In this document: positions 26,664 to 58,180 of the stretch, in pieces | How the letters are laid out: every line of letters begins with the position of its first letter | Numbering within the stretch: the stretch's first letter is position 1 | DNA from: Delphinapterus leucas | Taxonomy: Eukaryota; Chordata; Mammalia; Artiodactyla; Monodontidae | Reading direction: 5' to 3' | DNA length: 64,000 bases | Assembly: GCF_002288925.2 (NCBI RefSeq) | Contig: NW_022098030.1 | Span: 8,469,532-8,533,531 of the forward strand | Program-made: the position numbers and the translations under genes | The notes under the pieces: generated by a model | Told to the model about the DNA's origin: nothing | The model's database searches: none | The model's input: only the letters and a program-made list of their open reading frames with translations

Positions 26664-27065
26664 AATAAATAAATATTTATTTATTTTATTTAAAAATTAT
26701 TTTAAATAATTTTATTTATTATTTTTATTTATTTAAAAATTATTTTATTTATTTATTTATTTGGCTGTGTTGAGTCTTGGTTGCTGTGTGTGGGCTTTCT
26801 CTAGTTGTAGCAAGCAGGGGCTACTCTTCACTGTGGTGTGCGGGCTTCTCATTGCGGTGGCTTCTCGTTGCAGAGCATGGGCTTTAGGCACGTGGGCTTC
26901 AGCAGTCGTGGCACGCAGACTCAGTAGTTGTGGCATGCGGGCTTAGTTGGTCCTCGGACTTAGTTGCTCCTCGAAATGTGGGATCTTCCCGGACCAGGGA
27001 ATCGAACACATTTCCCCTGGATTGGCAGGCAGATTCTTAACTACTGCACCACCAGGGAAGTCCTG
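26664..27065 (-). mobile_element. CHR-type tRNA-derived SINE, long form, reversed
   Basis: The plus strand reads the whole element backwards, ending in 'ccaccagggaagtcc' (the SINE head) at about 27062. On the SINE strand the tail is the AT-rich (TTTA)-like tract at 26664-26760. A probable 8-bp target-site duplication, tgaagtca, lies at 26656-26663 and 27068-27075. Confidence 0.9.
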
Positions 27066-51627: not shown

Positions 51628-51906
51628 TTTTTTTAATTTATTTTTGCTGTGTTGGGTCTTCGTTTCTGTGTGAGGGCTTTCTCTAGTTGTGGCAAGTGGG
51701 GGCCGCTCTTCATCGCGGTGCGCGGGCCTCTCACTGTTGTGGCCTCTCTCGTTGCGGAGCACAGGCTCCAGATGCGCAGGTTCAGTAATTGTGGCTCACG
51801 GGCCCAGCCGCTCCACAGCATGTGGGATCCTCCCAGACCAGGGCTCGAACCCGTGTCCCCTGCATTGGCAGGCAGATTCTCAACTGCTGCGCCACCAGGG
51901 AAGCCC
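51628..51906 (-). mobile_element. CHR-type SINE, reversed, intermediate form
   Basis: The plus strand runs from a T-rich tail (51628-51648) to the SINE head 'gccaccagggaagccc' at 51891-51906. The perfect 14-bp target-site duplication ttctctcacatttt lies at 51614-51627 and 51907-51920. The distal half on the SINE strand is GC-rich, giving open frames up to 114 codons that are not genes. Confidence 0.95.
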
Positions 51907-55444: not shown

Positions 55445-55634
55445 GAATCTAGTCTAGTGGTTAAGAGTGCAGGTCCCATTAGGCTTTCTGAGTTCTTCTA
55501 CAACCTGCACCCACAAAATATCTTCCACAAACTACTAGTTGAGTAGTTTGGGAAAAGTTCTTTCTTTTCCTTTTTTGCTCAGCCATTAAACAGGGATGGT
55601 AACTACCTCACAGGTTGTTGTGAACACTTAATCC
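55445..55634 (+). mobile_element. MIR SINE, left half (split by the MULE element)
   Basis: MIR head with 'agtctagtggttaagagtgc' (about 55451), the central part, and 'gtaactacctcacaggttgt' (about 55599). The element then stops inside the 'tgtgaacacttaatcc' part, where the MULE terminal repeat begins. The missing distal part is found about 2.46 kb further on, at 58100-58180. Confidence 0.85.
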
Positions 55635-55640
55635 TTGCAG

Positions 55641-55745
55641 GACATTTCATCCTGTCCAACATGTTCATTGAGAAATGTGGTCCATGATTCGTTAAACAAT
55701 ACAAACATTTAACTTTGCCAAAATGTCTTTAATTTGTCCTGTCAT
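55641..55745 (-). repeat. MULE terminal inverted repeat, left side (about 1.5 subrepeats)
   Basis: Reverse-complemented, this contains 'gacaggacaaattaaagaca' with ttttggca, then about 26 unrelated bases, then 'atggaccacatttctcaatg' with aacatgttggacagga. These match the 59-bp unit of 57831-58090 in order. The inner copy overlaps the end of the transposase reading frame (stop at 55729). Confidence 0.8.
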
Positions 55746-56965
55746 TGCTTTTATGTTTGTCTTGTATCACTTCAATAAATCTCCAAGTTAAAGGGTGATG
55801 CACTACCATCAGCTTTTGAAATTTGCTATGCCAGCCTTCCACTGCATTGTTCATCCTATGATTGCTATTCAGTACTGATGTATAATCAATAAGTTTCTGG
55901 TTGAAATCTTGGAGCTTCTTGTTTTCTTCTCTCTCTGCTACACCTTTCATGGACTTATACTGTCTCAACATAATACAATAGGTCATCTAAATGTTCTTCT
56001 GCATTCTCCACAATGTATTTAGAAGTTTCAATTATATCTTCCAAAGCCACAAAAAAATGGAAGTCCAAACAACATGGATGCACTTACATGTGTTATTTTC
56101 CATTTTTATATACTCACATGTTAGAGCTAAATAAGATATTTTTCACCACAGTGACTGTGAAAAGTGAAACGATCAACATTTACATGTGCATTTAGTAAGA
56201 ATAGTCAAACTGCATTCATATTTGCAATCTCAAAATCCGTCATGCATAATGAAGGGTTAATGCTGAGATTTCTTTCTTATGCAAATGCAAATAATTTTTC
56301 AAACTTATATCTGTAAGTGTCTTCTGGCCTTTTCATTGTTAGTACATAAATCAGTGGCATACTGTAATCCAATACTACACGGTGCACATACATAACTGAG
56401 TGAACTGTGTTGGTGCCATTGTGAAGGTGCCATTGCTAAATAGTGTGGTATTGGCACTTAAACATCAAATATTGTCATAAGCTGTGTAAATAATTCTTTC
56501 ATCATCTTGAGCACTGGAATCATGCATAAAAAATGCTCCACATCTGGTCACTATACACTCCTCTGGAATTTAAATTCCGTGCAAAGATTGTTGTCTGTTT
56601 TGAATTCTATTTACTTGCTACTTTAATGAGTTTCTTTCTGCCCTTCATCATGAATATCATGGAGAGTTCTTTGAAGTAACTGTGATGGTACTGCGTTTGG
56701 TCCTTCTTCTGTCTGTCATTTTAACCTATTCAGTCTTCCTTACTTCCTCTTCAATACCAACTTTGTGCTGATGCTTTCCTGTCCCATCTAGAATGATTGT
56801 AATATTATCCAAATCCTGACTAGTTGTACACTGGACATTGCAGGTTCCCCTCTCTTTACAACTGTACCTTTTACTCCTATCTCTGTTAAAGAAATAGAAA
56901 AGGTAACAAAAGCCATTATAAGGTAGCATTGGCTTTTCTTTTTGTGAGTATACTATTTCTGCCAT
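55729..56965 (-). pseudogene. MULE transposase pseudogene with N-terminal FLYWCH finger
   Basis: This encoded the enzyme that would cut and move the element in the nucleus. An open segment of 79 codons (56965 to 56726) has the FLYWCH pattern: a G-F-x-Y start (residues 18-21), Cys36 and Cys42 as first zinc ligands and His65-x-His67 as the last. The usual Trp of the RYW-C part is missing (reads RYSC). The DDE core follows with frame breaks and stops: FSNGTFTMAP at about 56411-56440 is the first catalytic block, with Asn (56432-56434) where Asp is expected, and MTDFEIA at 56223-56243 holds the second Asp, about 66 codons later, as usual for MULEs. A second open segment of 85 codons (55986 to 55729) carries NNAVEGWHSKF at 55819-55851, the conserved MULE C-terminal motif, then a HPLTWRFIE stretch. 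At least two frameshifts and several stops make it non-functional. Confidence 0.85.
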
Positions 56966-57830
56966 ATTCCACTAAGAACTTTCAAATAAAGATGTCCTAT
57001 TGACAAGCAACAGAAAAATGGTTATGGATGGATGGATGGATTGCCTAGGTAGGAAAAACCTTACTAATGTCTTATGGATTCAACTCCAGGTTCATCTGGA
57101 CTGAATCAGCTAGTAAGTAGGTACCAACCAGTGATGGTCCATGCTGATTAGCAGGTATGTGTGGGAGTCACACCCACTAAAACCTCTCTGAACAGCAGCA
57201 CTTATTGTGGTCTACTGCTATCATACCTTTATAAGACATCAACTCAAGGGAAATATTGCCCATTAATCTTGGGAATGATTGTAGAAGGATTAATTAGATG
57301 CCCCGTATCACCCTCAAGGTGTCTATTACACTCAACCACTAAGGAGTAGGAGAGCCATACCCATTCTCACTCCTCCCAAACAAGTGAGACTCTCTGTAAA
57401 GTGTTTAGCTCAATGTGTTTCCAGCCCATTTTACATAGCAACTTGACCAAGTTCCTCCTTTTAAACTCTACACTTATTGAATGATCAAGCCACATCCAAA
57501 CAAATGCCCAGTAGCATTTACACATCATGCATTGTGAGATCCTGTCCTGGACTTGTTGTCCTGTGTGCATTTCTCAAACTGTAGGACTCTTCCTCAGTAT
57601 ATATAGTTAATATAAATTACAATCTTCTGCAAGATTCAAACCCTGACCCATCTACTTAGCCCTACATGTGATTACCAAGTCTACCAAGGCAAGAAAGGTT
57701 ATTATTGGCAATACAACCACAACACAATTATTGGACCAATAAAACATAATAGTATTTATGTATTAATCCTGTCAACAAAAAGTATAAATAAATGTTAGGG
57801 GCTATTTGAACCCAGGGATGTTTTCTAAGC
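56966..57830 (-). other. MULE 5' region upstream of the transposase frame
   Basis: Sequence between the FLYWCH segment and the inverted-repeat array, belonging to the element by position. A (TGGA)n run of about five units lies at 57023-57041. A 67-codon minus-strand frame (57570 to 57367) was not recognised and could be a leftover of an upstream exon, a promoter region, or chance. Confidence 0.45.
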
Positions 57831-58090
57831 ATGGACATTTTTAACAGGCTCAAATATTAAGGACAATTTGTCATGGACCAAATATGCTCATGGATGTTTT
57901 TGATAGGACCAAACTTCAAGGACATTTTGGCATAGACCAAATGTCTCAATGGACGTTTTAGACAGGACCAAATTTCAAAGACTTTTTGGCATGGGTCAAA
58001 TATCTCAATGGATGTTTTGGATAGGACAAAATATCAAAAACTTTTTGGCAGACCAAATGTCTCAATAAACGTTTGGACAGGACCAAATGT
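57831..58090. repeat. 59-bp tandem subrepeats forming the right MULE terminal repeat
   Basis: Units start at 57831, 57890, 57949 and 58008 (lengths 59, 59, 59 and 57), plus a partial unit at 58065-58090. Each has an 'atgga(t/c)gtttt' start, a 'gataggaccaaa' block, a 'gacattttggcat' block and an 'accaaatgtctca' end. Units differ at several positions. The same unit occurs inverted at 55641-55745. Confidence 0.92.
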
Positions 58091-58099
58091 AGCTAATCC

Positions 58100-58180
58100 G
58101 TTTAATAAATTAATGCACATTAAGCTCTTTGACCAGTGTTTGGAAGGTAATTAATGCTCAAAAGAGATGAGCTATTATGA
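58100..58180 (+). mobile_element. MIR SINE, right half (split by the MULE element)
   Basis: Continues the MIR begun at 55445: 'aaattaatgcacattaagct', 'ctttgaccagtgtttggaag' and a terminal 'gatgagctattatga'. These are the parts expected after the break point in the left half. Confidence 0.8.

Follow-up and report, generated by a model that had tools for sequence, protein, structure and literature searches.

Phantom is a subclass of the Mutator DNA transposons, reportedly introduced by Marquez and Pritham in 2010. Passages of two papers credit the subclass to these authors (PMC6446971, PMC3169594), and an excerpt of one of them speaks of limited evidence for Mutator-like elements (MULEs) in chordates and poses their true absence from vertebrates as a question (PMC6446971). 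For the human genome, the available part of a survey reports 437 MULE-MuDR protein fossils, 374 of which had earlier been found by RepeatMasker, and describes the type as never pre-amniote (PMC9004415). Here we describe a Phantom-like relic in a 64,000-nucleotide stretch of the Delphinapterus leucas genome (assembly GCF_002288925.2, contig NW_022098030.1, positions 8,469,532 to 8,533,531), termed "the window" throughout. The minus strand of 55633-58098 in the window carries a decayed FLYWCH-MULE DNA transposon of 2466 bp. Dozens of copies make up its family in this genome. The family is of the autonomous type, and its striking feature is a kinship to transposons of whipworms (Trichuris).

By its sequence, the element qualifies as a well delimited, Phantom-like (FLYWCH-MULE) Mutator relic. 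The original prediction, made from the letters alone, had placed a FLYWCH-like zinc finger, a MULE core and an NNxVEGWH C-terminal motif in this order on the minus strand within inverted repeats; all of these features hold, and so does the description as a FLYWCH-finger Mutator-like relic. The finger lies in an open reading frame (ORF) of 81 amino acids (56726-56971, minus strand), which matches the Pfam profile PF04500 with 27.3 bits (cut-off 23.6, E 4.1e-6). The comparison with Pfam and protein databases that had been proposed turned out favourably for the finger and for the homologues, but not for the MULE profile: none of the eight open frames submitted matches MULE in Pfam, and with each break written as X, the read-through scores 17.9 bits against PF10551 for the core and 14.9 bits for its whole length, at a cut-off of 27.6. 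The MULE identity therefore rests on homologues. All 34 related proteins give tblastn hits with E<0.01, without exception inside 56968-55726 on the minus strand of the window; the best hit, Trichuris suis protein P0001, reaches E 7e-61 in colinear pieces, while outside this region of the window no E falls below 0.12. The homology to MULE proteins over 56968-55738 includes an N-terminal FLYWCH finger, the combination typical of Phantom, and is framed by terminal inverted repeats (TIRs).

Over the 398 residues that align, the transposase of the window copy is interrupted by ten stops, and its frame changes at least three times; an ATG at 56965 (minus strand) aligns with residue 1 of the whipworm proteins P0006 and P0007. 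The first Asp of the MULE core, which we take to be a catalytic residue, is Asn in this copy, as expected for a relic, so that the catalytic residues of the MULE superfamily are not all intact; Asp is found at this position in two related fragments, P0024 and P0038. The window copy is also devoid of about 230-245 bp near its 3' end and has thus lost the end of the transposase. Among 17 other copies used in a tree (see below), 15 extend to P0001 residues 475-516, while L003 ends at residue 450 and L011 at 432. An Rfam search of the window and a search of solved structures with the FLYWCH frame gave no match, two frames tested against NCBIfam yielded chance-level matches only, and profile A1 matched 12 sequences of solved structures at chance level (best E 0.13).

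The boundaries were derived from the comparison of copies and lie at most two bases off the 55635-58099 originally given. The end-to-end inverted repeat has a local alignment score of 64, compared to a maximum of 45.5 in 1901 random placements, and it spans 28-109 aligned columns in ten copies measured. The two tips recur in other copies, and both lie outside the inverted repeat. The target-site duplications (TSDs) are 8-9 bp long, within the 8-11 bp of MULEs: the summed match between 5' and 3' flanks of 11 copies with both ends was reached by none of 2000 permutations. L007 contributes a 9/9 duplication to this test, and L018, the flanks of which are AT-repeat and match easily, was counted as well. 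Over the copies the evidence for the duplication is strong, and from the window copy alone it is weak; when its two ends are scanned, the near match of 8 bp that emerges sits at different boundaries, and 20% of random pairs would be expected to show one of this kind. The features of the element are compiled in Table 1.

Table 1. Positions of the element, its parts and its flanking duplications in the window.
Feature	Positions	Strand	Remarks
Whole element	55633..58098	-	5' end 58098 (GATTAG...), 3' end 55633 (...CAAGG); tips common to copies
5' target-site duplication	58099..58106	-	attaaacg; by eye, boundary from copies; 6/8 identical to 3' copy
5' terminal inverted repeat	57831..58098	-	in tandem array of about four 59-bp units
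Transposase relic	55738..56968	-	residues 36-451 of T. suis P0001; frames -1, -3, -1, -2; tblastn
FLYWCH zinc finger	56765..56953	-	PF04500 profile positions 2-62 of 62
MULE core	56136..56440	-	(N)GTF to beyond second Asp (TDFE)
NNAVEGWH C-terminal motif	55828..55851	-	within 85-aa frame 55729-55986
Junction	55715..55742	-	missing about 230-245 bp kept by several other copies (end of transposase frame); from hit spacing
3' terminal inverted repeat	55633..55745	-	one unit, interruption of about 33 bp
3' target-site duplication	55625..55632	-	attaagtg; by eye, boundary from copies

The genome searched comprises 2.35 Gb, and the counts of genome matches are lower bounds. At least 94 matches were found with the element as query (40 scored of 180 candidates) and at least 89 with P0001 (83 scored of 123 candidates), and the copies are spread over many contigs. 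Copies spanning most of the element (L002-L007, L017) share 67-76% identity with the window copy. The ten strongest P0001 matches all contain stops, and stop-free matches do not exceed 85 residues. Thirty loci were considered, 26 of which were read, the remaining four being second loci of the same copies; the window copy and 17 others retain at least 300 readable transposase residues. These 18 copies harbour 5-15 stops each and are 33-57% identical to P0001 at the residue level. In addition, the genome contains short palindromic derivatives of 207-347 bp (L031, L033-L036) that carry the window family's ends and repeat units. The 207-bp derivative gives 107 matches at no fewer than 40 places including itself (40 scored of 197 candidates), which are 81-100% identical on the better strand. 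Among six short copies of 207-419 bp, duplications of 9/9 (L034), 8/8 (L031, L036) and 8/9 (L033) were observed.

The mean pairwise Kimura two-parameter (K2P) distance of 17 copies is 0.28 (sd 0.054; 135 of 136 pairs, with at least 500 shared columns required), corresponding to about 0.14 from a common source. At neutral rates of 1.2-2.2e-9 per year, the age of the family is very roughly 65-120 million years (My). The original prediction had regarded autonomous-type copies with a readable transposase as unusual in mammals. Such a relic is indeed present, but it is multi-copy, and MULE fossils in mammals are not new, since 374 of the 437 human ones listed in the survey excerpt were known already (PMC9004415); for the same reason, the window family may have been catalogued.

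Against the protein database, the read-through finds five proteins with E<=1e-3 among 569 candidates, all from T. suis; the best match has E 5.2e-98 (42% over 97%). A profile search extended the set to 34 proteins among 5085 candidates, from Trichuris, thrips, whitefly, rotifer, ctenophore and metagenomes, and short metagenome frames were contributed by a later search, which gave 14 proteins from 3120 candidates. Where P0033, P0039 and P0040 match the relic, part of the match falls in the wrong frames, and P0040 also matches the non-coding leader of the relic; we therefore infer that they are other decayed copies of the window family; P0020, P0024 and P0036-P0038 probably are too. In T. suis, P0001-P0004 are frames 317-566 amino acids long within contigs 111-407 kb in length, and this speaks against pig DNA having entered the worm assembly. 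Two of the T. suis entries, P0002 and P0005, are gene models that apparently join pieces of MULE transposase to unrelated N-terminal parts, and P0013 of the thrips Frankliniella fusca, which is named an alanine--tRNA ligase, aligns with 89% of P0001 (39%), so that the name looks wrong.

In a first tree of 28 rows, from which seven of the 34 proteins were dropped (P0002, P0005, P0019, P0029, P0032, P0033, P0034), two short metagenome proteins group with the relic at 83/92, and all three join Trichuris at 100/100. A grouping of the relic with the thrips clade was rejected (p 2.3e-8). The second tree of 39 rows comprises the 18 genomic copies and 21 proteins. Here all copies fall into one star-like clade with a support of 100/100 and a stem of 0.18; it adjoins the T. 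suis P0001 group, and the copies and all Trichuris rows are united at 100/100. P0001 and P0006, both of T. suis, are 0.90 changes per column apart, compared to 0.44 between P0001 and the base of the copies.

The window family is not the only one of its kind in this genome. Ten loci gave low-scoring P0001 hits; one, L060, is a window-family fragment, and nine share parts of another element. This second family (L053-L059, L061-L074) measures 0.9-1.6 kb between ends at seven of the nine loci, and some of its ends read GGTTCTAGGTA. L059, which measures 1217 bp and has inverted ends spanning about 90 bp, gives at least 81 genome matches (40 scored of 142 candidates). A frame of L053 matches FLYWCH with 29.2 bits, above the Pfam cut-off, and a frame of L054 matches MULE with 17.8 bits, below the cut-off of 27.6; in the search for the C-terminus of this family, the last piece of a locus to be examined had no Pfam match. 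In a tree of both families (six of the 18 window-family copies and nine of 13 second-family loci), a common origin as one clade was rejected by the approximately unbiased (AU) test (p 1e-7). The excerpted description of RICKSHA_0 gives 79-bp inverted repeats around a stretch with a graph edge of 855 (PMC1431705), and summing these figures yields about 1 kb. Judged from descriptions of size and TIR length, the second family may be RICKSHA_0.

The window copy is most likely a dead, autonomous-type, Phantom-like element, the family of which was horizontally transferred from an element lineage shared with Trichuris, spread in one burst and decayed; we hold this reading with good confidence. It builds on what was observed: the order of the domains, the inverted ends and the duplications, the many copies of the family, the short derivatives sharing its ends, the star-like tree of copies and the age class. 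While alive, the transposase would have bound the repeats in the element ends with its FLYWCH finger and cut the element out with its MULE core, reinsertion giving rise to the 8-9-bp duplications; the binding and cutting steps are inferred. The same enzyme presumably also mobilised the short palindromic derivatives. The family would have entered a mammalian ancestor by horizontal transfer from the lineage shared with whipworms and decayed after a single burst. Since the nearest relatives found are whipworm jumping genes, DNA may have passed between very distant animals long ago; the copies are whipworm-like, and a whipworm may have been a direct partner, in either direction. More specifically, and only tentatively, at somewhat less than an even chance, a FLYWCH-MULE may have passed between the ancestors of whipworms and placental mammals, perhaps through parasite-host contact and at a time roughly between the Cretaceous and the early Tertiary; an autonomous family and short palindromic derivatives would be what it left behind in the mammals. 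If this is true, both partners of the transfer are still readable today.

Several observations weigh against this interpretation. The MULE core stays below the Pfam cut-off, and two of the six short copies lack a convincing duplication (L035 with 6/8, L032 with none by the test used). The rows of the second tree were fitted to P0001 and lean toward it. A position of the copies within Trichuris is not secured: the branch concerned has a support of 93/66 in the second tree and of 42/0 in the first, and is an open fork in the two-family tree. Trichuris as one clade is not rejected by either the first (p 0.30) or the second tree (p 0.19), and the protein database is uneven, so there may be unsampled hosts between mammals and Trichuris. 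The tolerated Trichuris clade and the patchy sampling of animals would suit a MULE that was inherited vertically by nematodes and mammals from a common ancestor and lost in many lines, with no horizontal transfer at all. Yet, nematodes and mammals split more than 500 My ago, and so old a split does not fit a tree in which two T. suis families lie further from each other than one of them does from the base of the copies. Moreover, MULE-MuDR is listed among the human transposable element types never found pre-amniote, as far as the excerpt goes (PMC9004415), and we regard vertical descent as improbable.

Compatible with horizontal transfer is the view that the window family is a RICKSHA subfamily or another Dfam or Repbase entry, of which the whipworm kinship alone has gone unreported. 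RICKSHA, RICKSHA_0 and Ricksha_a are listed as human MuDR elements in the sources excerpted here, the age class fits, and RepeatMasker had found most of the human MULE-MuDR protein fossils (374 of 437; PMC9004415, in part). However, it is the second family that approximates RICKSHA_0 in size and TIR length, as described, and the two families differ in their ends; the chance of a catalogued family falls just short of even. If the element were a pseudogene derived from FLYWCH1 or another host FLYWCH gene, the FLYWCH domain would be explained, but not the MULE homology that follows in order downstream. The original prediction had named alignment to a host gene as the outcome that would speak against it; the inverted ends, duplications and many copies found instead leave this reading a negligible probability, and a single host gene of the FLYWCH1 type without transposon ends was ruled out on account of the inverted ends and copy number. 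The nematode affinity of the nearest proteins could also point to worm DNA contaminating the assembly, a notion to which we give hardly any weight in view of 18 copies with 5-15 stops each on many contigs and the presumed mammalian cores of short interspersed elements (SINEs) in the window. Contamination and chance motif readings were both rejected. A scan of viral contigs with profile A1 for viral carriers returned 62 stretches with the pattern, none of which encodes a relative.

The SINE core GCAACTAGAGAAAGCCC occurs at 2283-2299, 26792-26808 and 51674-51690, i.e., three matches in the window compared to 0.16 expected. We take it to be a CHR-type SINE core; together with the genome size of 2.35 Gb, it fits a cetartiodactyl, probably cetacean, host.

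As a fossil transposon, the element is ordinary; its interest lies in the whipworm kinship and in MULE transposases that were once alive in one mammal. Two FLYWCH-MULE families that are unrelated to each other have left transposase relics in a single mammalian genome, and in one of the two, duplications of 8-9 bp are seen over many copies. Because of the whipworm kinship, public genomes can be used to test whether a MULE was transferred between very distant animals, perhaps a parasite and its host. Among the titles and abstracts listed on transposons of Trichuris and other nematodes, MULEs and horizontal transfer, none contains a whipworm-mammal MULE link. Transfers involving nematodes and vertebrates are reported for RTE elements in excerpts of two papers (PMC6542046, PMC4844689), transfer is likewise reported for a horse sequence shared with Parascaris (PMC6063916, in part), and it is suggested for the hookworm transposon bandit in the available part of PMC6542046.

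Among known systems, the Trichuris proteins come closest: P0001, P0003, P0004 and P0014 of T. suis as well as P0006 (T. suis) and P0007 (T. trichiura) have the same domain order and C-terminal motif as the window family, and P0006 and P0007 share the position of the start codon with the window element. The likeness is one of proteins, and the Trichuris proteins are frames of 226-516 amino acids on long contigs, whereas the mammalian tree copies are all broken. Phantom shares FLYWCH and MULE, TIRs and TSDs of 8-10 bp with the window family. A report from the horse is described as relying on nothing but a FLYWCH alignment (PMC6446971), while the window family provides a transposase relic, ends, copies and short derivatives. 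RICKSHA and RICKSHA_0 are described, in the passages cited, as old human MuDR elements with inverted repeats (79 bp; PMC1431705, PMC5753468); set side by side by description, RICKSHA_0 resembles the second family in size, not the window family. Finally, Tm1 of root-knot nematodes, according to the available sections of its description (PMC3169594), shares with the window family the FLYWCH-MULE combination, foldback-like ends with internal units, asymmetric tips outside the inverted repeat, a TSD of 9 bp and short derivatives. The units of Tm1 measure about 14 bp, in contrast to 59 bp in the window family, and its best BLASTP hits are to aphid and mosquito (PMC3169594).
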